Below, in pieces: positions 3,411-22,974 of a DNA stretch of 24,473 nt. Within the stretch, counting starts at the first letter, position 1; every line of letters begins with the position of its first letter. Under the pieces are notes generated by a model. That model was not told the origin of the DNA and did not search any database. It saw nothing but the letters and a program-made list of their open reading frames with translations. The DNA comes from a virus: positions 1 through 24,473 of the IMG/VR virus record IMGVR_UViG_3300004369_000138; one strand, given 5' to 3'. A program made the position numbers and the translations under genes.

Positions 3411-4421
3411 TTAGCTTACGCCATTAATTACTGCGTGGTATTCTGCAGGTCCTTTATCAAGACCAATTTCCATATATACACGCTTTGAGATTGCTGCTGC
3501 ATCATCATTGTCTGTATCTTCTACGAATACAGCACCTTTACCTGGGATGTTTAAGAAACAAACATCTAGGTATGCAAGGTCAAGAATGAATGCTTTGTCA
3601 GAAGGAACAAATTCGTTCACTACTAATCCCATGTTTCCAAATGGTGTGATGATGGTGTCAATGTTGATACCAGCGATATTTCTATCTCTTGGTAACACTG
3701 CCATCTTTTGGTTTCCTTGTGCAACAAGTCCTTGGTTTAAATCAAGAACTGAACCTGGTCTTGCGAACAAGACTGTGTTTTGCATTGGAGCTCCAGCATC
3801 ATACATAAGTTTTAATGTTTCAGAAACTGCTGTGTAATCTAATGATTGTGCTGTTCCTGTTCCATCATTATTTGTATCGTGTGCATAAGCTGATGAACCA
3901 TTTCCTGATGCTACCCATTCTGCGATTCCTCGCATCTCTCTTGGGTTACCATCTGTTCCATCATTGAAAGTAGCATTAAAGAACTCAAACTCAACTTCTC
4001 TTGCGATTTTGCTGAGTAGCTCTTCTAATTGAAATGCCATTTCATCATTTATTGGGTTAGAACCTTCAAAAGCTGCTGTTCCAGATTCCATAGCTTGGGA
4101 GTTCAAATATCCTGTTGAACCTAAAGCAGAGTATGTTAACTTTACACCCTGATTCCAGATTTGTACACAGTCTATTGCTGAACTTCTGCTTCTACCAAAA
4201 TATGATGGAGTTCCACCTTCTGCAACTGCTGTGTAGCTGTTAACTGTAGGTGTATCCACTTTTTGGGTTTGGAATACTGGAGAATTAAGAAGTTTACCAC
4301 CTGTTAAACCACCCACCATGGATAGTAGAGGTGTTCTTCTTGCACCAACTTTAAATAGTTCACCTGTAAAATTGTTAATCTCACTTACTGAGATTGGGTT
4401 TGGTGAGCCTATAGCTGCCAT
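3411..4421 (-). CDS. Major capsid protein (HK97-fold, SU10-like type)
   Basis: A 336-residue protein beginning at ATG 4421 with an AGGAGA ribosome-binding site seven bases upstream, one of the best in the window. It follows the scaffold gene, as expected for a shell protein. The N-terminal stretch RRTPLLSMVGG and later TPSYFGRSRSSAIDCVQIW resemble major capsid proteins of the SU10/DUF5309-like branch of the HK97 fold. A long helix with EEMAFQ-like composition (about residues 125-150, ending EVEFEFFNATF) would match the spine helix. No maturation-protease gene is visible in the window and the length is normal for an unprocessed capsid protein. It forms the icosahedral shell around the portal. 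The family is judged from memory; the fold is inference, the capsid role is well supported by context. Confidence 0.82.
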   Translation of the reverse strand: MAAIGSPNPISVSEINNFTGELFKVGARRTPLLSMVGGLTGGKLLNSPVFQTQKVDTPTVNSYTAVAEGGTPSYFGRSRSSAIDCVQIWNQGVKLTYSALGSTGYLNSQAMESGTAAFEGSNPINDEMAFQLEELLSKIAREVEFEFFNATFNDGTDGNPREMRGIAEWVASGNGSSAYAHDTNNDGTGTAQSLDYTAVSETLKLMYDAGAPMQNTVLFARPGSVLDLNQGLVAQGNQKMAVLPRDRNIAGINIDTIITPFGNMGLVVNEFVPSDKAFILDLAYLDVCFLNIPGKGAVFVEDTDNDDAAAISKRVYMEIGLDKGPAEYHAVINGVS

Positions 4422-7814: not shown

Positions 7815-9974
7815 TTACCTATTCTCCTGTAGTTTAGCATACTCTCCAAAGGCATAATCAATTATAGGTTCACTAATCTTCCATGACAACGACCATGTAT
7901 CAGAGATTTCACCAAATTCATTCCATGTATCTTTACCTAGTTGTTTCCAATTTATATCTGGATTAGTATTGTCATAGTCTAATAATTCTATTCCTTGTTT
8001 TTTTCTAGCTTTATCAAATGCTTGTGCTGCATCTATTGTTAATACACTTAATTCATACCCTACATAAGCTGCTAATGCAGCAGGAGATATTGCAGCTAAA
8101 CCTAGTCTAGGTAACAATCTTGATATACCTGCAGTTATAGCTACATCACCTGGGTCTAATACACCTGCTGCTGTATTAAATGCTTTACCTACAACTTTCT
8201 TAGCTGATTTCATAATTCCATCTACTACTTCTGGTTGTGTACTTACCAGTTCTACTACCTTGTTTAAACTTCTAGTATCTACTAATTCACTTGCATCTTC
8301 TACTACAGTACCTGCAACATTAATAATCTCTTCAGGCATAAGTGCTACTTTTTGTGATGCAAATGGTCTATCAGCAGGTTTAATATATCCTGCATCTGCT
8401 TTAGATAATAGTTTTCCTTCAGCATCTCTCATGTGTGGACCATAGTTTGTAAAAGTATTTTGTCCTAATGTTTCTGTAGTCATTACTCTTCTAGCGTCTG
8501 AAGAATACATCTCTTTATGAGCTAACCATGCGTTGTACTCACCTATTGGACCAAAGGTATTACCTCTCATACCATGTCCAAATGTGTCATGTACAGCTCT
8601 AAAGACATCATTCTCTAGCATTACTCTTCCATTTACATCTGTATATATTGATTCAGCTAACATTGGATTTAACTTACTTGTAGCTTCATCACCAAATCCA
8701 GATTCTGTAGCTAATACTTTTAATGTTCTATTTTCCATATCAGCTATCATTTGTTGATGACCTACTCTGTTAGGTGTGTATGGGTCTCCATCTACTACTT
8801 CAAACTTCATACCTGCATCTAATAGTGTTTGATACTGCATATTAGTTTCTTGTATAAATTTCTTATAGTAAGGTATAGCATTGTCATCAAACATAGGTAA
8901 TTGTTCAAATATATCTGCTGCTATTGCACCTACTTCATCATTAAATACCGCAGCTGGTTTAAAGTCTGGGTCAGAATATCCCATTATCTTGTGATAGTCT
9001 TGTGCTACTTTTCTAATCCTATCGCTATGTGTTGATAAACCTGTTTCTAATGATGATATGTCATCTACTACATTTGTAGGTGTGTTTTGTACTATAAAAC
9101 CTTCTTTAGGTAATTCACTACTTGTAATGTACCAATTATCTTCTATAAATTTTAATCTTTCTTTAGTTAATATATTTCTATCTCCCTTAGAAGTATCCAT
9201 AACTGTTTTAGAAAAAGGATTATCTACTGCTTCTTTATATACAATAAGTTCCATTTCTTCTTTATAATCTAAACCTAAAGAATGTAAATCTATAAAATCA
9301 TTTTTATTAACAAAATAACCATCTATACCTCTACCTTTTTTAATAGTTTCTTGATTAGTTTGAAGACCTACAGACCACGCTTGAAAACCATCTTTAGAAA
9401 ATGATTGAATAGGGTCATTTGTTAATGCACCACCTCTAAATAAAATAAAATAATCATCTGCATTTGCATATAATTTATTGTGTTCATTAATTATTGTTTG
9501 TTTTATTCTTTGTTGTGCATTAGCAAATGGTCCTTCTTCTCTACCAAATTGCAATATTAATTCATCACTTAATACACTCTCCTTATTTATGAAATCAAAC
9601 CATTTTTTTACCATTTCTAATGTATCTTCATTAATTAAATCAATAGGACTTTTACCATTAAAAATAACTATTTTTGTTACATCTGCTAAGGCATCAGATG
9701 AACGAAAAGGTTTACTTCCATAGGCAGGTACTGGACTTTTGTTCAATAACCATATTCCAAATTTAGTAAAATCTATATCGCTTACTGTTCCATCTAATAT
9801 TTGTGGAATTATTCTTTTTATATCATCTCGTTTTAAATTGGGTTTTAATATATTATTTTTTTCAACTACACCTTTTTTCCATTTAGCATATTTTGAGTTT
9901 AAATTATTATCCCACTCTAAATCAGTATTTAAAGTTGGTGTATCATCAGGAATAGGTAGGTTATCCTCTTCCAT
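7815..9974 (-). CDS. Putative ejected protein with ADP-ribosyltransferase-like domain
   Basis: A 719-residue protein starting at ATG 9974, one base after the transglycosylase stop, with an AGG site. Two regions stand out. Residues about 174-246 carry a pattern like the R-S-E signature of mono-ADP-ribosyltransferases: R180 in LFRGG, SFS at 191-193 with AWS just after, and E240-x-E242 followed by LIVY. Residues about 330-515 form a second conserved-looking domain with VHDTFGHG at 461-468 (H462, D463, H467) and W483/H486, possibly metal-binding or catalytic; I recall similar blocks in other phage proteins but cannot name the family. The C-terminal 150 residues include a hydrophobic stretch LPRLGLAAISPAALAAYVGYEL that could insert in a membrane. 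Packaging in the virion and delivery into the cell, as with T4 Alt, is inferred from the neighbours. Confidence 0.6.
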   Translation of the reverse strand: MEEDNLPIPDDTPTLNTDLEWDNNLNSKYAKWKKGVVEKNNILKPNLKRDDIKRIIPQILDGTVSDIDFTKFGIWLLNKSPVPAYGSKPFRSSDALADVTKIVIFNGKSPIDLINEDTLEMVKKWFDFINKESVLSDELILQFGREEGPFANAQQRIKQTIINEHNKLYANADDYFILFRGGALTNDPIQSFSKDGFQAWSVGLQTNQETIKKGRGIDGYFVNKNDFIDLHSLGLDYKEEMELIVYKEAVDNPFSKTVMDTSKGDRNILTKERLKFIEDNWYITSSELPKEGFIVQNTPTNVVDDISSLETGLSTHSDRIRKVAQDYHKIMGYSDPDFKPAAVFNDEVGAIAADIFEQLPMFDDNAIPYYKKFIQETNMQYQTLLDAGMKFEVVDGDPYTPNRVGHQQMIADMENRTLKVLATESGFGDEATSKLNPMLAESIYTDVNGRVMLENDVFRAVHDTFGHGMRGNTFGPIGEYNAWLAHKEMYSSDARRVMTTETLGQNTFTNYGPHMRDAEGKLLSKADAGYIKPADRPFASQKVALMPEEIINVAGTVVEDASELVDTRSLNKVVELVSTQPEVVDGIMKSAKKVVGKAFNTAAGVLDPGDVAITAGISRLLPRLGLAAISPAALAAYVGYELSVLTIDAAQAFDKARKKQGIELLDYDNTNPDINWKQLGKDTWNEFGEISDTWSLSWKISEPIIDYAFGEYAKLQENR

Positions 9975-9975
9975 T

Positions 9976-10827
9976 TTATCTACCTAATAATTTAAGTGCA
10001 GCTTGTACAGCATCGCTAAAAGTAACTTGTGGTACTACACCAGGAATATATGGTGTATGACCTGCTGATTTTTTTTGTTTATTTACTTGTGCTTCTAACA
10101 TCTGTTTAACTCTTGCGTATGAAGGATTTTGTGCAGCTAATGGTACTTGTGTATAGTATTCTGGGTTTACCTGTGGTGTTCTTCTAGTAACTGGTAAACT
10201 ATCAGGAACAAATGTCTCACTAGGTTCTGGTATTCCTCTATCTGGTTCTTGTTCAAGAACTGTAGTAGTTGTTGTAGAAGGCACACCTTCTTTTATTTCT
10301 TCTTCTTGTTTACCAAAAGCTATTTGATTATATCCTTTGATGTAATCTACTGCTTGTGTAATCTCTGCATCTAAACCATCTTTAAATACCAACTCATCTG
10401 TTGGTGCTAATCTTTTCATATTTGGTTTGATGTATTCTTTATAAGTAGTCCAGGCATCAAATGGGTCTTTACCATAAAACTTAGGATTATCTCTTCTGTA
10501 TCTATAGATATGAACAGCGAACTTAGTTGCGTAGTCTATATCATATTTAACCTTCTCTGTAAACTCATCTAGTTCTAAAGTCTCACCTTGTTCTTGAAAA
10601 AATGCTTTAGTCATGTTATCAGGATTACCATTATCAAAATATTGTGGAGGATTGATTTGCCATAAACCTTTATCATTAGGGTCAGCATCACCATCTATAC
10701 CATGAGTAAATTTAGATTCTAAATATGCAATAGCTAAAAGTACTCTTGCATCATCACCAGGAACTTCTTGTTCAAATAATAATTGCTTTACTTCTTCTAC
10801 TGTGTATTGCTTTACTGCTTCTTCCAT
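9976..10827 (-). CDS. Virion-associated lytic transglycosylase (SLT lysozyme fold)
   Basis: A 283-residue protein that starts in a TAATG overlap with the 341-residue gene, behind an AAGGA site. Residues about 27-125 match the soluble lytic transglycosylase fold: LLAIAYLESKF contains the expected catalytic glutamate (E37), and KGLWQINPPQYFD is the Gly-Leu-Trp-Gln-Ile motif that lines the sugar-binding groove. DAWTTYKEYI fits the closing helix of such domains. There is no signal peptide and no holin beside it, so it is better read as a particle-borne enzyme that opens the cell wall during DNA entry than as the lysis endolysin. The second half is Pro/Thr-rich with a STTTTTV run, a flexible region, and ends in a basic tail. 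The enzyme fold is well supported; the role at entry is inferred from context. Confidence 0.78.
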   Translation of the reverse strand: MEEAVKQYTVEEVKQLLFEQEVPGDDARVLLAIAYLESKFTHGIDGDADPNDKGLWQINPPQYFDNGNPDNMTKAFFQEQGETLELDEFTEKVKYDIDYATKFAVHIYRYRRDNPKFYGKDPFDAWTTYKEYIKPNMKRLAPTDELVFKDGLDAEITQAVDYIKGYNQIAFGKQEEEIKEGVPSTTTTTVLEQEPDRGIPEPSETFVPDSLPVTRRTPQVNPEYYTQVPLAAQNPSYARVKQMLEAQVNKQKKSAGHTPYIPGVVPQVTFSDAVQAALKLLGR

Positions 10828-11853: not shown

Positions 11854-14800
11854 TTATCCTTCTAATCCAAATCTAGTTAGTTCGTAAGCAAATACTTTAT
11901 CAAATATTACCAAAAATTTAGGATTATTTCTTCCTATTTCTTGTGCTTTAGTATACAACTGATTACGCACTTCTTGTGCTTGTATTGTATCACTTGTGCT
12001 TATCCACCTCATAGCATCTTTTTCTATAGGATAACCTCTTTTATCTGCTACTGCATCTATAGCTTGTGCTCTGTAGTTAAGATACAATGCTATCTCATCT
12101 CTATTATCAAAGTTATTAAACCTAGGGTCTTTAATAGCTCTTTCTAAATAATCTATTAACACATCATTAGGTACTCCTGTTTCATAATTAGAACCTAATA
12201 CTTTATTTAGTTCTGCAGAATTACCATAAGCCATAGGAAACATTTGTGCTAAATCAGCTTCTATTAGTGCAAACTTAGCTTTTTTCTTAGCAACTCTTTC
12301 ACCAGGGTCAGTAGTGCTGTTATCTATAACTTTAGACCAATAATCTTTTGTTGCTACTTCCATTGAACTAGCAAGGAATGTTTGTGTAGATACATAAAAT
12401 TCATCTGGTGTTTTAGGTGTAAATAATCCTAAATTAGATATGTAACTAATACCACCATATTCAACATTACCTTCATCTAGTCCTGGTGCAAACAATACTA
12501 ATACTGGTCCAAATTCTGCAGCTAGTTCTGGATTGTCTAATATAAAATCATATTCTGGTGTAGTTCTTGGCAAGATACCACCTTCAGATATATTTTTTCC
12601 TTTTATCTGTAATGCAGTAGAAGTAAAACCTTCTGATAAATCTCTGTTATCTAATCCTAATAACTTAGCTACTTCTAGCAACGCATAGAACTCACCTTGT
12701 GGTCCTAGTGTCATTACATACTCATCTTTGATATCTTGATAAAAACCATGTATAACTGACAACTCTACAAAGTTGTTATATACTAAACCACTATCTTCAC
12801 CTTTAGTACCATACCATTCTGCAAATGCAACTTCGTTACCTTCTATTGCATACATAACAGATAGTCTAGGTATAAATGGATTTACAAATCTATCCCATGC
12901 TTTTAATTGAAAAAAGTTAGCTGCTAGTGTCATAGCTACAGTTTCTAATGCTTCTTGGTCATCTGCTAAATCTGGTCTCAATATACCTGCAACTTGATAG
13001 GCTGTGCTAATAGATGATAACCATTGGTCTTCGTCTAGCCCTGCTGTACCTAAATTAGTGGCAACTTGGTTTAATAAGTTTTTACCAACAGAAGGTATTG
13101 TAGTTTCTAATAATATACCTGGTATATCTTCTAATGAATCATATTTAGCACCTGTTAATTCAAACCCACCAAAAACATACTTTTCTAAATTCTTTTTAGC
13201 TTTAGGTTTATCTCTTACCAATACACCTATTGGCAACGCAAGACCTGGTCCTATAGGTGGGAACAATCCACCACCACCAACATTCAGTGCATTAAGTGGT
13301 ATCCCTCTTTTAGCAATAATTTTAGAATCAGCAAGTGCCATATCATCTGTAAAAGCACCTCTACCTTCTGACTTTACATAATCTTCAAATGGTGTTCCAC
13401 CTACAGGAACAATAAGATATTTCTCACCTGAAGGGTCTTCATATATAAAATTATGTTCTATTCCTTTTCTGTAACCAAATCCAATTTGTGCTACAGCTTT
13501 AGGATTAGCTAAACCTAAATTGTAATATCTACCTAATACTTCACGCCATGCTTCAAAGAATGCAAAACCTACTCTATATGCTTGTGCGAAAAACCCTCGT
13601 TCTGTTAAGTTATACAATAACCTAGAGTGCAACTCAAAAGCATACTCTACAGCTCTTTCATGCAAATCTTCCATAGACATAACTCTTGGAGTTGTAGCTG
13701 ATTTTATATCTGATAAATCTAACATAGATTGATAGTCGCCACTAAATGTTCTATCTAGTATTGGATTGTTTTGTGGTTTAAGTATTTTTACAACACCTGC
13801 TTTTTGGTCTACTATTGCTCTAATTCCTGCAGATTGTAATACATCATTCCCAATAACTGCACCAGCTCTAGGTAATGTTATAGCTACATTAGGTTTTAAT
13901 ATTTTTTTGTTAGAACCTATAAGTAAATCTTGACCTGCTCTTCTAATTACATCTAATGCACCTGCAGTATTACTATATATAGTACCTTGGTATCCAGCAG
14001 TAGTTATATTACCAATAGCTTTCTGGTCTCCTAGTATTGCTATGTATTGTGCTTTAGCAAGAGCTTCATCTGTTCCATCAACTACTTGTGCAGCAACACC
14101 TTTTTTAACTCTTATAGAAACATCTAAATGCAATTTATCATTAGTTTTATCTATCCAACCACCTAATACATGGTCTTCTTTTTTAAGTAATGTTTTATTT
14201 TTAAGAATAAAATCTTCTATTTGTTTTCTAGTTACAGGTGTTTTTAAAACAACTTCTTTTGTTTTGTATGGTGATACATAATAACCAGGTATGTTTGTAT
14301 TTTTACTTTTTCCTAAATCTATACTCCAACCATCTGGTTTTGCTTGTATATATTCGTATGCTCTATCTATAGCATCCTTCATCTTCTCTTTTTCTACTTT
14401 TGATTTTTTACTAAGTATTGGTCTTGACTCTTTTTTACCTAACACTCTGTTTAATGTAGTAATATTTACATCATGTGTTATTTCTCCTTGTGCATTCTTA
14501 ACTTTTTTAGTTGTCTTGCCTTTTTGTAATTTAACTTTGAGTCCTACAATGTTAGGTGTAGAACCATCAATACCTAATACTTCAAACAATTCCTTTTTAG
14601 TAATTGTTTTATCAAACTTACCTTGGTTACTAGCTAGGTATTCTATAGCATCATCTACTAATGCTTCTGCATCTACACTTTCATCTAGTGCATTTGTTAC
14701 AGCTTTAACAAGTGCATCTTTGTCTGGGATAGAACCATTAATAATTGCTTCTGATTTATTTATAGAAAAGTTATACACACCTATTGCATCACCATCATCA

Positions 14801-17800
14801 CCTAATCTGTAATCAGCAACTGCTGATTGTTTTTTAAATACTTTTAATTCTGTGTTGTACAAGTTTAAATCAAATGTAAGTTCGTCATTGAATGTGTCTA
14901 TTCTTTTTAATGATGTAATTTGTTTTTGTCCATTATCGCTATATGCAATTATTGATAGCGAATCACCATTATCAAATACTTTTACTGGTACAGTTCTTTC
15001 TGTAACAGCTAAGTCTGGTGCTAAATCTTTTATAGCATTGTATTCTTTTTCTACCATTCTAAATATATCATCACTTAAATTAATTGTTGATTCTGGGTCT
15101 TTGTGTGCTGCCATAATTTTGTTAAGACCTTGTTTAGATGTAAATGGTATACCTGCTTCTATAAAATGTTCGTATCCTTGTTTAAAGAAAGGTACTCTGA
15201 TTAAATCTGCTTCCATTTGGGCAGTAGCAAAAAACAATGCGTCTAGTCCTCTTTGGTATGCAGTTCTTTCATCTATTTCAGGTTTCATTTTAGGAACTTG
15301 ATTAGGCATTTTACTTTGATTTTTTAAGGTAAGTTTTTTAATCTTTTCATTATATATAGATAAATTTTCTGGTGTCATAGAATCAGTGCTACGCAAATCT
15401 ACTCTACCTACTTTAGCTGTTGCAATAATGTCTATTATATCTGCACTACCACCAGTCATATTGTTTATGCTCTGTACATAATGTTTAGCTAGTGCTTGGA
15501 AGTCTTCTGGTTTATTTACAATAGGTAGTGTACCTTTTGCATATACATTTCTTGATTGCATCATCTTATTAGCTTGTTCTATAATTGTTTGCACTGCAGG
15601 TGTATCTTGATAAAACTTAGCAATATCTGTATAATCTAAACCTTTTCTCATTAACGCTGCTGTAATCATAGCTAAATCATCATCAATGTATTCAAATAAA
15701 TATTCTTGTACAGCTTCTATATATTCATCTGATAACTTAAATGCTTGTACACCATCTGGCATAGGAACATCTTTAGCTCCTAATTTATTAATTAACTCAT
15801 ATCCTGTATCTGGAAATCTTCTACCAAAAGCAAATGTTGGTGAAGCAGAGGATAAAGATTGTAATTCTGGTATTCCATAGTCTGCACTATCTTGCAATAC
15901 GCCTAATGCTTTTCTAATAGACATAGGTAATTTTTCATTTAATCCCTGTAGTTGTTTATTTTTAAATTCAAGTGGTCTAGTTATTTTATATGGACCAACT
16001 AAAGATGTTTCAGGTGTGTAACCTATAGCTCTAGCTATTACACCATTAGCATCATTTAACAAAAATCTAAGAAACTTAACTGGACTTCTAAATGCAGACC
16101 TTACACCTAGTAATGATGCTCTAAGGTGTCCGTCTACTGTTAGTTTTGCAGGATAAGAAAATCTACCTAACAACTGTAATGGATAAAACACACCTCTTAC
16201 AAATCCAAATGTTCCTTTTTCTATAGCTGACAAAACTTTTTCTTGACCTTTAAACAGTAATCCTGGGTCTCCTAAACCTTTAGAAATATCTGCTATTTCT
16301 TTACCCATAGGTGTATCTACATCCCAGAATGTTCCTGGTTTACCTTCTTCAAATGCTTTTCTTGCTTGATTAAATACTTTATCTATACCTTTTTTTTCTA
16401 TCAATCCTTTTGCTTTTAGTCTTCTTCTTTGTGATGTAGTTTTAATTATTCCAACTACATCAGGTATTTCTATTGTGTAACCTTTAAATTGATTTATTAA
16501 TTCTATAGAGTTTCTTACAAATTCTTGTGGTATTTCTACTCCTTCTACTTGTCCACTAAATTGTTTCTTTGTAAGAATATCTATTTCATCTACTGGATAA
16601 AACTCATCTGTTCTTGATGGTGTTAGAAAATCTCCTACATTATCACTAAACATTCTTGGACCTTGTTTCATTTTTCCAAAAAACTCTGTTATTTCTGTAT
16701 CAAATAATCCATACAAGTATCTAAGTTGTAGTGCACCTTCAGTTCTAAGCAGACCATCATAATAAATATCTTGTGCTTTTGTATATAAACCTTCATCAAC
16801 AGCTTCGTAAAAATCTATTAACAACTTGTTTAAACGACTTTGTGGTACTTTAAATACATTTCCTACTCTTGCAAAAATAACTGCAGCTTCTTGTATATTT
16901 CTTAAATCTATTTGTCCACGATTAGGTAATCTAACATCAGTACCATTAAATAATTCTTTTAATGTTCCACCTCTTCTAGTAGTTGCAGTAATACTGTTAT
17001 CTAATTCTTTATCACCAAATGCTCTAATCAAGTTATCTGATATAACTTTGGACTGTATTCTAAATTGACCTGTTTTACCTAGCGAAGATTTTCCAAACAC
17101 CATATCTGATACATAACCATTATTAAATCCATCTATAAGACCATCTTTAATAATTTCAGGGTCAGTTGCATCAGCTACAGTCTTTGCAAACTTATGATTA
17201 AATCCTGAATTAATCATATTTAAAAATGTAGGTTGATTTGCTTTGTTAGCTTCTACAATAACAGTAGCCATACCATCTAGTATCTCGTCATTGTTTTGCC
17301 AAAACTCTGCTACAGTTCCACCTTCATCAACAAATCTTTTCATTTCTTTTTGTGCACCTGCAAGAACTTCGTCAAACTTTTCTGGTACTTTACCACCCAA
17401 TCCAACACCTTTAGCTACTAATACAAATGGGTCTGTGTAGTACATAGTTACTAAATTAATAGCACCACCCATAATTCCTGCTATACCTTTGTTAGGTTCA
17501 AATGCTATCTTACTTAACTCTTCATCTTTTTCGTCTTCTAATTTGTCTACTAACTCATTTTTTTGTGTTATAGATATTTGTCCTGCATCAAATGCTTGTT
17601 CAGCTTGTAATATTTTTAAATCATATTCCAACTTTTTATCTTCATACATTATGTTTTCAGGTGCATATCTACCTGGCATATTTCCTGTAGCTAAATAACT
17701 AGCAAAATCACCTAAGTTAGAAGATATCTGTGCTTTTTCATATCCTTCTCTTAATTTTCTATTTTGTGCTACTGGTGTAGATTCACCTAATAAATTTAAT

Positions 17801-18714
17801 AATGTATTATCTGAAACCTCTTCAGTAAGAATTTCATACCAGTTGTTTAAAGCTAAACTAGCTTTTTCAGTTTGTGTAAGTTCTCTTTGTAATTTTTTTT
17901 CTTGTATTTTAATTTCATCTAATGTATTTTCTCTAGTTGCTTGTATAGCAGCCCCTATATCTGTTTTTTGTAAATAACCTTCACCATCAGCATCTACCAC
18001 ACCTTGTGTAGCTAACCATGCTTTTGATTTAGCTTCTACATCTACTAAAGAATCTACTGGTGTATCTAAACCAAATATATTTAATAATGTTTCTGGTGCT
18101 GCAATTACATAGTTCTTTAAAGTTTTTGAAAATGCTTTTGTTCTTATACCTGCAACTTTCCATTCTTGTTGATTATCATTACGACTTTTTTTTTCAAACT
18201 CAATCATGTCTTGTCTAGTAAGACCTTGTTCTGCAAGTATTTCTTCTTCATATTGTGCATAAGGCACACCTAATTGATTTACTATACCTCTTTGTAAAGT
18301 ATCAAAAATACTGTTAAGACCCATAAATATAGAACCAAAAAAGAATTTTTCACCTTTGTCATAACCTAAATCTTTTTTTGTTTTATCGTATATCTCTTGA
18401 TTATTGCGAATTGTTTTTTGTACTGTTTTTAAAAAATCTGTAACAGCATTTGGCTTACCATTAGTTAAATTAATTTTTATAGGTTTAGTAGTTTTATATA
18501 ATTCATAATATTGTTGTGGTGTAACATTTAATTCTGCTGCTGATACAACTAACTCATCCATTTCTAATGGTGTTAGATTTTTTAAATCTTGAAAGTTTTG
18601 TGTAAGTGCGTCTAAATCAGTATTAGATTTAGTTGCTTCTTTCTTTTTATTATAAGCAAGGTATTCATTATGCTTTTCGTAGAAGTCTTTATTCCATTTA
18701 TAAAAAATGCTCAT
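11854..18714 (-). CDS. Giant 2286-residue putative internal/ejection protein
   Basis: The largest gene, 28% of the window. ATG 18714 overlaps the stop of the 116-frame gene (TAATG). Residues 1-330 are charged and helical. About 404-440 is a Gly/hydrophobic stretch (IAGIMGGAINLVTMYY) and about 834-876 a hydrophobic-basic one (FYPLQLLGRFSYPAKLT); both could touch membranes. Residues about 1440-1570 contain HVLGGWIDKTNDKLHLDVS near 1515, a block I recall from many polyvalent phage proteins. A second Gly-rich hydrophobic segment lies at about 1813-1834 (GGGGLFPPIGPGLALP). The C-terminal 400 residues are mostly helical. I see no convincing RNA polymerase, protease or nuclease motif. Size, lack of signal peptide and place beside a transglycosylase fit a packaged protein ejected with DNA, as for T7 gp16. 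A virion RNA polymerase of the N4 type was considered but not supported. Confidence 0.7.
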   Translation of the reverse strand: MSIFYKWNKDFYEKHNEYLAYNKKKEATKSNTDLDALTQNFQDLKNLTPLEMDELVVSAAELNVTPQQYYELYKTTKPIKINLTNGKPNAVTDFLKTVQKTIRNNQEIYDKTKKDLGYDKGEKFFFGSIFMGLNSIFDTLQRGIVNQLGVPYAQYEEEILAEQGLTRQDMIEFEKKSRNDNQQEWKVAGIRTKAFSKTLKNYVIAAPETLLNIFGLDTPVDSLVDVEAKSKAWLATQGVVDADGEGYLQKTDIGAAIQATRENTLDEIKIQEKKLQRELTQTEKASLALNNWYEILTEEVSDNTLLNLLGESTPVAQNRKLREGYEKAQISSNLGDFASYLATGNMPGRYAPENIMYEDKKLEYDLKILQAEQAFDAGQISITQKNELVDKLEDEKDEELSKIAFEPNKGIAGIMGGAINLVTMYYTDPFVLVAKGVGLGGKVPEKFDEVLAGAQKEMKRFVDEGGTVAEFWQNNDEILDGMATVIVEANKANQPTFLNMINSGFNHKFAKTVADATDPEIIKDGLIDGFNNGYVSDMVFGKSSLGKTGQFRIQSKVISDNLIRAFGDKELDNSITATTRRGGTLKELFNGTDVRLPNRGQIDLRNIQEAAVIFARVGNVFKVPQSRLNKLLIDFYEAVDEGLYTKAQDIYYDGLLRTEGALQLRYLYGLFDTEITEFFGKMKQGPRMFSDNVGDFLTPSRTDEFYPVDEIDILTKKQFSGQVEGVEIPQEFVRNSIELINQFKGYTIEIPDVVGIIKTTSQRRRLKAKGLIEKKGIDKVFNQARKAFEEGKPGTFWDVDTPMGKEIADISKGLGDPGLLFKGQEKVLSAIEKGTFGFVRGVFYPLQLLGRFSYPAKLTVDGHLRASLLGVRSAFRSPVKFLRFLLNDANGVIARAIGYTPETSLVGPYKITRPLEFKNKQLQGLNEKLPMSIRKALGVLQDSADYGIPELQSLSSASPTFAFGRRFPDTGYELINKLGAKDVPMPDGVQAFKLSDEYIEAVQEYLFEYIDDDLAMITAALMRKGLDYTDIAKFYQDTPAVQTIIEQANKMMQSRNVYAKGTLPIVNKPEDFQALAKHYVQSINNMTGGSADIIDIIATAKVGRVDLRSTDSMTPENLSIYNEKIKKLTLKNQSKMPNQVPKMKPEIDERTAYQRGLDALFFATAQMEADLIRVPFFKQGYEHFIEAGIPFTSKQGLNKIMAAHKDPESTINLSDDIFRMVEKEYNAIKDLAPDLAVTERTVPVKVFDNGDSLSIIAYSDNGQKQITSLKRIDTFNDELTFDLNLYNTELKVFKKQSAVADYRLGDDGDAIGVYNFSINKSEAIINGSIPDKDALVKAVTNALDESVDAEALVDDAIEYLASNQGKFDKTITKKELFEVLGIDGSTPNIVGLKVKLQKGKTTKKVKNAQGEITHDVNITTLNRVLGKKESRPILSKKSKVEKEKMKDAIDRAYEYIQAKPDGWSIDLGKSKNTNIPGYYVSPYKTKEVVLKTPVTRKQIEDFILKNKTLLKKEDHVLGGWIDKTNDKLHLDVSIRVKKGVAAQVVDGTDEALAKAQYIAILGDQKAIGNITTAGYQGTIYSNTAGALDVIRRAGQDLLIGSNKKILKPNVAITLPRAGAVIGNDVLQSAGIRAIVDQKAGVVKILKPQNNPILDRTFSGDYQSMLDLSDIKSATTPRVMSMEDLHERAVEYAFELHSRLLYNLTERGFFAQAYRVGFAFFEAWREVLGRYYNLGLANPKAVAQIGFGYRKGIEHNFIYEDPSGEKYLIVPVGGTPFEDYVKSEGRGAFTDDMALADSKIIAKRGIPLNALNVGGGGLFPPIGPGLALPIGVLVRDKPKAKKNLEKYVFGGFELTGAKYDSLEDIPGILLETTIPSVGKNLLNQVATNLGTAGLDEDQWLSSISTAYQVAGILRPDLADDQEALETVAMTLAANFFQLKAWDRFVNPFIPRLSVMYAIEGNEVAFAEWYGTKGEDSGLVYNNFVELSVIHGFYQDIKDEYVMTLGPQGEFYALLEVAKLLGLDNRDLSEGFTSTALQIKGKNISEGGILPRTTPEYDFILDNPELAAEFGPVLVLFAPGLDEGNVEYGGISYISNLGLFTPKTPDEFYVSTQTFLASSMEVATKDYWSKVIDNSTTDPGERVAKKKAKFALIEADLAQMFPMAYGNSAELNKVLGSNYETGVPNDVLIDYLERAIKDPRFNNFDNRDEIALYLNYRAQAIDAVADKRGYPIEKDAMRWISTSDTIQAQEVRNQLYTKAQEIGRNNPKFLVIFDKVFAYELTRFGLEG

Positions 18715-19272: not shown

Positions 19273-21049
19273 GAGGTCCTCCTAATGGTAGTCCTGGTCC
19301 AGCAGCTAATTGTTCTGGTGGTAATCCTCCACTTAATTGTGCAAGAACACTAGCTATATCTGGTTCTGCCTGTGGTATTTGTGGTGCTCCTGCACCAGCT
19401 AATGCTGCTTCTTCTGGTGTCATTTCTGGTTCTTCTGGTGTAAAGAATTTATCTAATATGCTACTCATGTTTTGTGGATTTTTTCTTATTTCTATAGCTG
19501 CCATAGTAGCTTTAGCATTACCTTTTACAGCTTGTGCCATTAACGATTCAAATAATACATTTTCTGCTCTTTCAGAATTAACTCTGTTTTGTATTTGAGA
19601 TATATTATCTAAACCATCAAGGTTTTCTTGTAGCGTTTGCATATCTATTACACCTTGTTGTTTTAATTGCAACCCTGTAATTATTTTTTGTGGTTCATCA
19701 AATCCTGCCATAACACCATAGACTCTTCTTGTTTTATACATTTCTGCTATATCAGTGCCTGGGTCATAACTTTCTTTAAATGCTGTACCTTTTCTAAATC
19801 CTGCAATAGGTTTTCTCTGACCACTATACATAATTTCATCCCACTCTAATCGTTTAGAATCTATTTCTTCTAAAGCATCTGTTAGAACAGTTTGATATTC
19901 TCTTACATGCAGTGATGCAGATTGACCTAGTTCTTCTAATCCTCTACCAGTAACAAAAGCATTAGGCGATTGTCCATCATCTGATACTGGATATGCAGAA
20001 CCTAGTCTTAGGTGTCTTTCAAGTCTATCTATTTGTTGGAACAACTGATAAGGTAAATTACTAGTTGGTTTGCTAACTTGCGAACCAGGTGTCAAGTAAT
20101 TGACTGCGAATCTACCTTTTCTATATTGTCCAGATTCTATCTCACCAATGATGTTGGTTTCTGTAAACACAGCATCTTCCATAGCAATAACAGATAGAAC
20201 ATTGATTTTTGCCATATTTGCCATTAAACCAATTACATGATGGAATTGGCTTTGCATTTGGTCAAAGCTGTAACGCTTTGCTATGACAAATCTTGGTCCT
20301 GATTTAAGAGGGTTAGGAATAAAATCTAATATAATTTTGTTTTCAGGAAGAAATACATAAGTTCCTTCTTCGTCATAATACTCTGCAACTACTTTACCTG
20401 TACCATCTGCGTTATCCCATCCTTGGTCGTAACTAGATAAATAAGCCATAGTGTTATATTCACTACTTACTTCATCAAGTATTATATTTTTGTATTTTGG
20501 ATACATTTCTGCAAGAGTTACATGTGGCACTCTTTGCACTACTGCTAACTCTTTTGGTTGTTGGTCTACACCAAAATATCCTGGGTAACATAGATATGGG
20601 TTTCTTATTTCTGCTACTGGATATGGTATGCCATTAGCATCTTTCTTTTCTTTTAATATCCATACAACAAATCCATAACCTGGCAACCATCTACCAACTT
20701 GTGGTAATTGTTTATCAAGTTTTTGAATATCGTCATAAGCATGTACAATTCTTTCTAATTTTTCTGCTCGTTTAGATGCTCTTTCAGAATCTTTGTCATT
20801 GTATATATCTATTTTTAAATCTGGTGCTCTACCTAATTTTTGTGCAAATCTTTCTAATGCAGAAATTAATAAGTTAGGTGCAGGTAATTGTCTGTAATTC
20901 ATATCACGCATATCTTTGCCTAATAATGCTTTTAATCCATCAGCACCACCATTCATAATTGCTCTTATATTTTCTTTGTCGCCTACATAATCAGCGTGCA
21001 TAGCTCTTAATTCATAAACTCTTGCGTAAAGCTCGTCTGCTGTTTTCAT
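19265..21049 (-). CDS. Portal protein
   Basis: Starts at ATG 21049 in a 4-base ATGA overlap with the terminase stop; a TTG three codons upstream is in frame but less likely. At 594 residues the length is typical of phage portals. It is rich in helix and beta hairpins, with MNYRQLPAPNLLISALERFAQ and an ERFAQK/EKLER clip-like region near the N-terminus, then a wing-like domain (GWLPGYGFVVW, EIRNPYLCYPGYFGVD) that I associate with portals of marine podoviruses. The C-terminal 70 residues are Gly/Pro-rich and probably flexible. It forms the twelve-subunit ring at one vertex, through which DNA is packed by the terminase encoded just upstream. Family membership is from memory; position and size give strong support. 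Confidence 0.82.
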   Translation of the reverse strand: MKTADELYARVYELRAMHADYVGDKENIRAIMNGGADGLKALLGKDMRDMNYRQLPAPNLLISALERFAQKLGRAPDLKIDIYNDKDSERASKRAEKLERIVHAYDDIQKLDKQLPQVGRWLPGYGFVVWILKEKKDANGIPYPVAEIRNPYLCYPGYFGVDQQPKELAVVQRVPHVTLAEMYPKYKNIILDEVSSEYNTMAYLSSYDQGWDNADGTGKVVAEYYDEEGTYVFLPENKIILDFIPNPLKSGPRFVIAKRYSFDQMQSQFHHVIGLMANMAKINVLSVIAMEDAVFTETNIIGEIESGQYRKGRFAVNYLTPGSQVSKPTSNLPYQLFQQIDRLERHLRLGSAYPVSDDGQSPNAFVTGRGLEELGQSASLHVREYQTVLTDALEEIDSKRLEWDEIMYSGQRKPIAGFRKGTAFKESYDPGTDIAEMYKTRRVYGVMAGFDEPQKIITGLQLKQQGVIDMQTLQENLDGLDNISQIQNRVNSERAENVLFESLMAQAVKGNAKATMAAIEIRKNPQNMSSILDKFFTPEEPEMTPEEAALAGAGAPQIPQAEPDIASVLAQLSGGLPPEQLAAGPGLPLGGPLG

Positions 21050-22974
21050 GTTCTCCAAACATCTATATCTATGTCTAGCCCTGAGTATCCACTAAAGCTA
21101 GGTTCATATTCCATACCCATTGTAGCAAGTCTTTCCTTTTGTAAACGCCTTATTGTTTTCATAGGAAACCAACTTGCCATAACTAAGTCAGATTTCTGTC
21201 CTACAGTTCTACTTTTATTTTGTGCAGAACTAAAATACACTAACTGACTTGTATATAAGTTTACCTTTTCTTGTGCTTCAAAGCTACGATAAGGTAAATT
21301 AATTAGCTTTTGTTCAAACAATGGTCTCATAGCTGTAACACCATACACTGGGTCATGCTTGTTACCATAAGTCTGTGTACCTTCTAAAAATATACCATGC
21401 TTACCTGCAAAATCACGAATTGATTTATCTTGTCTAATTGCTTTTTGAAATCCATTCTCTTCAATAACCCAATGTGATAAGTTATATTTTTGAAACCAGG
21501 TTTTTATAATTTCTAGTGCTACTGGTATACCTCCACCTAAACTGTTTTCCATATCTATCATGTACAATCTATCTGTCTGTTGGTCATAACCCCATAAAAA
21601 TGCTGCTTGATATCCTGTAGATGCTGGGTCAAGACCTGCAATTAATCTAACATTATGTGGTATGTGTCCTATGTCTCTGTTTTGGTCTCTACATTCCTCT
21701 ATTTCTAGTCTATCAAACAAACTCATACCATCTGGCATAGCTACATTAAGATATACCATTTCGTATATAGCTCTACCACCTGTAGTTTCTGCAGCTTTTT
21801 TTCTATCCATAAGCCACTTGTATGTTCTTTTTTTAGCCCACAACATACAGTCTTGATGTAATTCATTATCCCAATCTGATAAGTTACAAGCTGTATCATG
21901 TGCCTCTTCTACAATAGTTAGCCATGATTCGTTATCTAACAAATGAGAATACAAATCGTCATAGTGTTGTCTTGAACCTATAACAACCATAGCTGTGTGT
22001 TCCTCTTTACGACTTGACAATGTTGTAGTCCACCAGTTTCTTGTGTTTTCTCTTGATGCTGGTTGCATAGTAGAACTGTGGTCTTCAATGTCATCTGCAA
22101 TAATTAAATCACAGTCTCTTGATAATATTTTTCCACCTCTACCTATACCAACCATAGTAGGTGATTTAATACCTGTTACAGTTCTAGTACCTACAGTAAA
22201 ACCATTTTGAGACCAAGACTTACCAGTTCTGCTTGTTGGTTTAAATTTTGGTCCTGGTCCACATATCTCTTCAATTAATAATTCATTACTTTCTAATTGG
22301 TCTAATACAGAACTAACTGCATTTTTTGCAATCTCTTCGTTACCACCTACCCATAATATTCTTATGTTAGGTTTTGTACATATAAGCCATACTGCAAAGT
22401 GTATAAGCAAATCAGTCTTACCATGTCGTGGTGGGGACAATATCATTTGCTGATTACCATTTTCTATTGTATCTAAAATAGAATTAATCCACTTAATGTG
22501 AAATTCTGGTGTTTCGTATGGGTCTCCAGTTTCTGTCTGAAAATATCTATCTCTAAAATCTCTAAAGTCTTGTAATGACTTTTCTGCAACTTGTGGTATC
22601 TCCCAAGTCTTTCTTGCTTCCTCTTCTTCTAAATCTTCTAAGTACGCTTGGTATGCCATAGACACTGCTGCTATAGATGTTTCTAATATCTTAGATACAT
22701 CTTGTATTGTTGTTTTTTTACTAAGTATATCTTTACCTAAACCTGATTCTTTCAAATCGTTATATACAACACCTCTACGACTTTGTACATTTTTTTTGCT
22801 AGGTATTATTAAATCTTCTTCTTTTTGTTCCCACTCAATACCTTTAGCTTTTGCCCTTTTCTTTTGAGTCTGTATTCTATTAGCACACCTATCACTACAA
22901 TATTTTTTACGCTTACCGCTTAATACTCGTTTGCATCCTGCTGCATAACAAAGTTTATTTGCCACGCTTCTCAC
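21046..22974 (-). CDS. terL: Large terminase with N-terminal zinc-finger/HTH extension
   Basis: A 642-residue motor of DNA packaging, starting at GTG 22974 (a second GTG at 22965 is possible). The ATPase part has a Walker A at about residues 179-187 (SPPRHGKTD) and Walker B at about 289-297 (DLIIADDIE). The nuclease part has the RNase H-like motif GLDPASTG with D449, then HWVIEENGFQ supplying a glutamate and DLVMASW near the end. Before the ATPase lies an extension of about 130 residues: a four-cysteine finger (C9, C14, C26, C30, CSDRC), a basic helix (QTQKKRAKAKG), and a helix-turn-helix-like stretch at about 86-111. No small terminase gene is present in the window, so the extension may recognise DNA. 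It overlaps the portal gene by ATGA and is preceded by a zinc mini-gene that overlaps its start. Confidence 0.88.
   Translation of the reverse strand: MRSVANKLCYAAGCKRVLSGKRKKYCSDRCANRIQTQKKRAKAKGIEWEQKEEDLIIPSKKNVQSRRGVVYNDLKESGLGKDILSKKTTIQDVSKILETSIAAVSMAYQAYLEDLEEEEARKTWEIPQVAEKSLQDFRDFRDRYFQTETGDPYETPEFHIKWINSILDTIENGNQQMILSPPRHGKTDLLIHFAVWLICTKPNIRILWVGGNEEIAKNAVSSVLDQLESNELLIEEICGPGPKFKPTSRTGKSWSQNGFTVGTRTVTGIKSPTMVGIGRGGKILSRDCDLIIADDIEDHSSTMQPASRENTRNWWTTTLSSRKEEHTAMVVIGSRQHYDDLYSHLLDNESWLTIVEEAHDTACNLSDWDNELHQDCMLWAKKRTYKWLMDRKKAAETTGGRAIYEMVYLNVAMPDGMSLFDRLEIEECRDQNRDIGHIPHNVRLIAGLDPASTGYQAAFLWGYDQQTDRLYMIDMENSLGGGIPVALEIIKTWFQKYNLSHWVIEENGFQKAIRQDKSIRDFAGKHGIFLEGTQTYGNKHDPVYGVTAMRPLFEQKLINLPYRSFEAQEKVNLYTSQLVYFSSAQNKSRTVGQKSDLVMASWFPMKTIRRLQKERLATMGMEYEPSFSGYSGLDIDIDVWRT

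Follow-up and report, generated by a model that had tools for sequence, protein, structure and literature searches.

A probable R-S-E ADP-ribosyltransferase cassette in a modular virion-block protein of uncultivated phages

The window analysed here is the entire 24,473-base virus record IMGVR_UViG_3300004369_000138, and the subject of this report is its gene for a 719-residue multi-domain protein. We favour the reading that residues ∼26–298 of this protein represent a new family of R-S-E mono-ADP-ribosyltransferases (ARTs), as judged from residue conservation, and that they belong to a modular protein that is probably particle-borne and would enter the host. The domain is one of several interchangeable cassettes that meet at a short linker, and related loci are referred to below by L numbers.

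An R-S-E motif conserved across a family of phage domains

The initial annotation had pointed to ART-type residues at R180, S191-F-S193 and E240-x-E242. These are located exactly as noted, in the segments FILFRGG...PIQSFSKD...YKEEMELIVY (minus-strand codons: R180, 9435–9437; S191, 9402–9404; S193, 9396–9398; E240, 9255–9257; E242, 9249–9251). The features concerned are as follows.

7815 to 9974, minus strand: gene for the 719-residue multi-domain protein (open reading frame, with syntenic homologues in related phages)
9081 to 9899, minus strand: ART-like cassette, residues ∼26–298, a helical N-lobe followed by the R-S-E core (DNA identity with L121; 12-member family)
9249 to 9437, minus strand: core R180...S191-F-S193-K194...E240-x-E242 (coordinates and invariance across the domains)

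The bare motif is weak because a loose pattern, R-x(8–45)-S-h-S/T-x(30–65)-E-x-E, is present in 12% of residue shuffles of the 719-residue protein; a stricter version, composed after the protein had been seen, is present in none of 2000 shuffles. The real support is conservation. R180, S191, E240 and E242 are identical in all 12 homologous domains (12/12), which come from uncultivated viral contigs, while position 193 is S in 11 and T in one. The S-motif variants are SFSK, SFTK, SASK and SMSK, with STSK (i.e. S-T-S) in L099. In a 10-row tool alignment (A10), where identity to the window domain ranges from 22 to 78%, 18 of 251 positions are invariant, including these four residues; for four residues named in advance to be invariant, p is about 2e-5. 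Loss of R180 or E242 in relatives had been set by the initial annotation as a ground for rejecting its reading, and both residues are kept in all 12. The predicted catalytic-arginine position also has the context [FW]R-x-G with hydrophobic residues ahead of it, its placement on a strand coming from a low-confidence model only. L060 reads NEMEILAPDSAF, which is near the E-x-E...P.G...F.V seen in T4 Mod relatives. A motif arising by chance in a structural protein would be in keeping with the frequency of the loose motif in shuffles, but this explanation is largely refuted by the invariance of these residues in diverged homologues, and the cassette has moved between phages as a unit (see below); we consider it highly improbable.

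A search with the whole protein returned 13 contigs (62–82% identity), 12 of which align over residues ∼290–719 only and one, L001, from residue 215. The genes around these loci are collinear with those of the window and up to 94–97% identical, so that even close relatives do not share the putative N-terminal enzyme. A C-terminal profile, together with a tail DNA pattern, led to distant relatives, of which two carry a similar domain (L027, blastp 3e-9; L060, blastp 3e-5). A scan of viral contigs for the linker 18-mer CCTACAAATGTAGTAGAT returned 99 stretches, and in the newly fetched loci its matches sit, with one exception, in an open frame reading PTNVVD. A profile built from the three domains then known found nine more homologues, mostly at E 1e-25 to 1e-20, with L121 at 1e-60. 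Protein-level scans of viral contigs, phages and plasmids with the N-terminal domain alone gave no match, and neither did early two-sequence profiles; no bacterial relative came up in genome scans with the C-terminal block or the ART alignment. Weak matches in Streptomyces phages (E 0.6–7) were dismissed because they straddle two small overlapping open reading frames.

Known families, structural models and assignment of the domain

Several results weigh against an ART assignment: (i) residues ∼26–298 have no match in Pfam, PHROGs, NCBIfam or the PDB by sequence or profile; (ii) the profile search proposed by the initial annotation matched no known ART, T4 Mod/Alt included, and hhalign against nine T4 Mod/Alt relatives gave no similarity (probability 0.2%); (iii) AlphaFold models built with two and three sequences are both poor (mean predicted local distance difference test scores of 40.8 and 49.5), and Foldseek on the window's own model gave no ART match and no useful one; and (iv) the distance from R to S is 11–16 residues among the 12 domains, below the 24–27 residues read off the alignment for T4 ModA/ModB relatives, in which the residue order is identical. 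The approximate ART spacing that had been claimed thus holds for the distance from S to the second E (50–57 residues, unremarkable) but not for that from R to S.

The second of these low-confidence models (L060, AlphaFold2) contains a helical lobe, an R strand, an S strand, a helix, a strand and a strand adjoining E-x-E. This is the ART order of secondary structures, with R on the first strand, S on the second and E-x-E where a later strand starts. Foldseek with this model found nothing better than E 0.2 in the PDB, and Foldseek in a viral library gave no usable match. The four matches of highest probability among the 50 listed are TreX/TreTu, Rhs toxins (probability 0.18–0.20, E 0.6–0.8, not significant); TreTu is an ADP-ribosyltransferase (PMC10469887), and we take these matches as a hint only.

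Alternatively, the cassette could be an unrelated enzyme or binding domain that is delivered alike and whose residues are conserved for other reasons. The lack of a profile match to any known family, a fold left unproven by low-confidence models and the additional invariance of D68, D98, K101, K194 and D229 (window numbering), which are atypical for ART positions, all favour this explanation. However, the residue order, the strand placement, the S-T-S of one member and the E-x-E followed by hydrophobic residues fit ARTs, and the four residues specified beforehand do not vary; we regard a non-ART domain as rather improbable. Counted for an ART are the invariance of the motif, S-T-S in L099, the conserved block between terminase and capsid genes and a second ART-like cassette in the same slot (both described below). 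The window domain is thus likely to be an ART, with a predicted fold and catalysis, and this part of the initial annotation is retained for the residues kept in the 12 relatives and not for a profile link to known ARTs.

As an ART, the N-terminal cassette would take NAD+ of the host as its substrate and, early in infection, ADP-ribosylate at least one host macromolecule. NAD+ would be positioned by R180 and S191, while E242 would serve as catalytic glutamate and E240 would assist in orienting the acceptor; these are the roles of such residues in R-S-E ARTs in general.

Modular architecture and the linker seam

What had been noted as an ART-like signature in a probable ejected protein proves to belong to a linker-joined multi-domain protein in which the ART-like domain is one interchangeable cassette. 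It is followed in order by the linker, a phrog_3170 domain without assigned function and a constant tail.

9060 to 9087, minus strand: linker (seam) encoding NTPTNVVDD, with the 18-mer at 9063–9080
8442 to 9005, minus strand: phrog_3170 domain, residues 324–511, function unassigned (motif HDTFGHGMRGNTFGP; present in many phages)
7818 to 8330, minus strand: constant C-terminal tail, residues 549–719, including WSLSWKISEP and a moderately hydrophobic segment at residues ∼605–655

Throughout the family, domain boundaries are repeatedly marked by the linker sequence DTPTNVVDD, encoded by the same codons. The window gene and that of L121 are 84% identical in DNA sequence over 875 nt, a stretch that stops within the linker (identity is 82% in the 120 nt that precede it and 29% beyond), while the proteins of their neighbouring genes are only 24–38% identical. 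At its left edge, the shared stretch likewise comes close to a linker remnant (PTLN at window residue 13; STNVVDDVPTLN in L121). Among 77 proteins, 295 of 574 ends of internal homology, which are not mutually independent, fall within 12 residues of a linker, compared with 71 expected. The seam survey covered 116 distinct contexts in the loci. The conserved linker block is ∼27 nt long and sharply bounded. The way contigs were selected accounts in part for the identity of its central 18 nt, whereas the flanking positions are free of that effect, as is the count of exact 18-mers in linker contexts gathered without it: 16 of 19 such contexts, which are partly related, contain it, compared with 4.3% expected from codon usage. 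The block holds a near-perfect 12-bp inverted repeat, CTACAAATGTAG (CTACA-AA-TGTAG), as read from the consensus.

Judged from these alignments, cassettes are exchanged between phages and meet at the DTPTNVVDD linker, which is conserved at the DNA level and where homology breaks. The ART-like cassette of the window would have been acquired by exchange at this linker. We tentatively propose that a large family of uncultivated phages may equip an ejected protein with effector cassettes drawn from a common pool, recombination taking place at a dedicated in-frame seam of ∼27 bp (GACACACCTACAAATGTAGTAGATGAT). The linker could alternatively be conserved as a peptide only (e.g. as a hinge or protease site), its DNA identity reflecting codon bias and recent common descent. 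In favour of this, the contigs were partly collected by the exact 18-mer, and AT-rich codon bias yields it by chance at the 4.3% per site given above; its frequency in contexts gathered without it, and the sharp end of conservation at about 27 nt, where homology breaks, argue for conservation of the DNA itself, and a peptide-only linker seems unlikely.

The phrog_3170 domain has similar regions in mycobacteriophages and in one cyanophage protein annotated as 'large polyvalent protein', and it looks enzymatic. It contains an invariant HDTFGHGMRGNTFGP and MTTET-GQN, has no Pfam match, and its records are variously annotated as lysin, RelA/SpoT, glycosylase or crystallin motif. A more distant clade keeps only residues ∼549–719. 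A membrane-spanning tail was considered and rejected: its maximum Kyte–Doolittle value of 1.49 is under the usual cut-off of 1.6, and the tail is thus termed only moderately hydrophobic.

Virion-gene block and probable delivery

Comparison of related phages indicates that the gene block holding the 719-residue gene is conserved and placed between the terminase and major capsid genes. No close cultured relative was found that would bear on the short-tailed type suggested by the initial annotation.

3411 to 4421, minus strand: major capsid protein (SU10_MCP match, 2.3e-46), which marks the block as virion genes
9976 to 10827, minus strand: neighbouring gene with an SLT-like head (weak PF01464 match), a constant tail (residues ∼184–283) and a head that is replaced in relatives
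11854 to 18714, minus strand: giant protein of 2286 residues in the same block, without assigned function (open reading frame, block comparison)
21046 to 22974, minus strand: large terminase subunit (phrog_38)

The initial annotation had called the neighbouring gene a transglycosylase; the basis for this is a sub-threshold SLT match only, and we describe its head as SLT-like. Its C-terminal ∼100 residues are constant, and three unrelated heads in all occur on this tail in the window and in L001, L002, L004–L006, L008, L010–L012 and L027: the SLT-like head of the window, a head in seven relatives that we read as GH24/T4-lysozyme-like by its motif, and a third type in three. L060 has a window-type SLT head at 72% identity, with no match detected to the tail of the window's neighbouring gene. 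Two constant tails are therefore neighbours, one joined to exchangeable cell-wall enzymes and the other to exchangeable effectors, which is the pattern that would be expected of ejected proteins.

The claim that the 719-residue protein is particle-borne gains from the conserved block and the conserved C-terminal tail, its presence in particles being inferred. With T4 Alt as a working model, the protein would be built into the particle late and then enter the host with the DNA, and the tail would either put it in the particle or carry it through the envelope. By analogy with T4 Alt and with polyvalent proteins, delivery with the phage DNA is quite likely. An ART that acts inside the producing cell instead (i.e. 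in late takeover, superinfection exclusion or anti-defence) would agree with packaging that is itself only inferred and with T4 ModA and ModB, which are ARTs that are not injected, unlike Alt (PMC5512222). However, the ART-like domain is fused to a tail that is conserved across phages and adjoins a similarly built lysozyme gene inside a structural block, and we judge a non-ejected enzyme to be improbable.

Other cassettes in the pool

The cassettes found upstream of the tail in relatives comprise this ART-like domain, a second ART-like domain and HPr, methyltransferase, GNAT, Nudix, aldolase and ParB-like domains. The last five of these were found either in proteins of this family or together with the linker. 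Among the linker-bearing open reading frames of L090–L175, one encodes a class II fructose-bisphosphate aldolase (6e-36), and others encode a Nudix protein, GNAT acetyltransferases and methyltransferases.

The second ART-like cassette lies in the same slot (residues ∼418–500 in L001 and ∼22–85 in L066), reads TIYRVVPEG...NANDWVFINKGQAEE...LEMGYF and matches the C-terminal part of phrog_2579 (1.9e-9); its description as ART-like is our own reading of the sequence. Further N-terminal domains of these proteins, unclassified and possibly ART-like, lie around residue ∼334 of L060 (LYHSISKGE...FHAGT) and residue ∼44 of L027 (KFSHTM).

The HPr-like cassette matches HPr structures by profile at 1.8e-7 with an invariant phospho-acceptor His, and in L121 it exceeds the Pfam cut-off (24.1 versus 23 bits). 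HPr-like domains are found within the same virion-block protein in L005–L013, L054, L064, L065, L067, L072–L076 and L121. The Arg adjoining the His is missing from L005/L013 (M-I) and L006 (G), and as we read these sequences the domains lack a Ser at the regulatory position. The presence of an HPr cassette suggests that some members of this phage group may tap host sugar-phosphotransfer signalling on entry.

Comparison with known systems

Injected ARTs are already known from T4, whose Alt enzyme is packaged into the head and then injected (PMC5512222; T4 record note). The window domain resembles T4 Alt/ModA/ModB (Alt/VIP2 clade, R-S-E) in the order R, S-x-S/T, E-x-E, with RG after a strand, S-F-S and E-x-E, but it differs in having no profile similarity to them and a shorter R–S distance. 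Unlike the T4 enzymes, it forms a single module within a larger multi-domain protein, and the phage family that carries it is an unrelated one. Many phage ARTs are fusions to head proteins (including MuF) or are encoded near head genes, and those near terminase, portal and capsid genes, which make up about 44% of phage ARTs, are predicted to be packaged (PMC9503650). That survey of virus NAD/ADP-ribose proteins covers completely sequenced viral proteomes, whereas no cultured relative of the window domain was found.

Multi-domain 'polyvalent' effectors have also been predicted before. The polyvalent proteins of phages and conjugative elements described by Iyer et al. in 2017 (PMC5512222) combine biochemically diverse domains, ART and ParB-like ones among them. 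The present protein is likewise multi-domain and encoded with virion genes, and its phrog_3170 domain is common to the phage protein annotated as 'large polyvalent protein'. At least two unrelated domains occur in one polypeptide in the window (ART-like and phrog_3170), in L121 (ART-like and HPr) and in L027 (ART-like and ParB-like). Polyvalent proteins usually, though not obligatorily, carry an ART of the H-Y-D type (Tox-ART-HYD2; PMC5512222), whereas the window domain has R-S-E, and HPr, present here as a cassette, goes unmentioned in the text of that paper. This study adds to these a family, probably new and of the R-S-E type, within a multi-domain protein, whereas the ARTs found in the published polyvalent survey are of H-Y-D types.

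More surprising is the finding of a seam conserved at the DNA level, with its pool of interchangeable cassettes. Effector exchange is visible here: phages so closely related that their virion-block proteins reach 97% identity have unrelated cassettes, yet the window and L121, with their diverged neighbouring proteins, have the 84% identical cassette in common. With the seam as a guide, unknown effectors could be found by sequence, any stretch between two copies being a candidate early-infection effector. Domain shuffling within phage proteins is a known form of mosaicism (PMC10684548); in this family the cassette boundaries coincide with one short repeated DNA sequence. By analogy, the seam would be a phage counterpart of the junctions in polymorphic toxins that acts at the DNA level.
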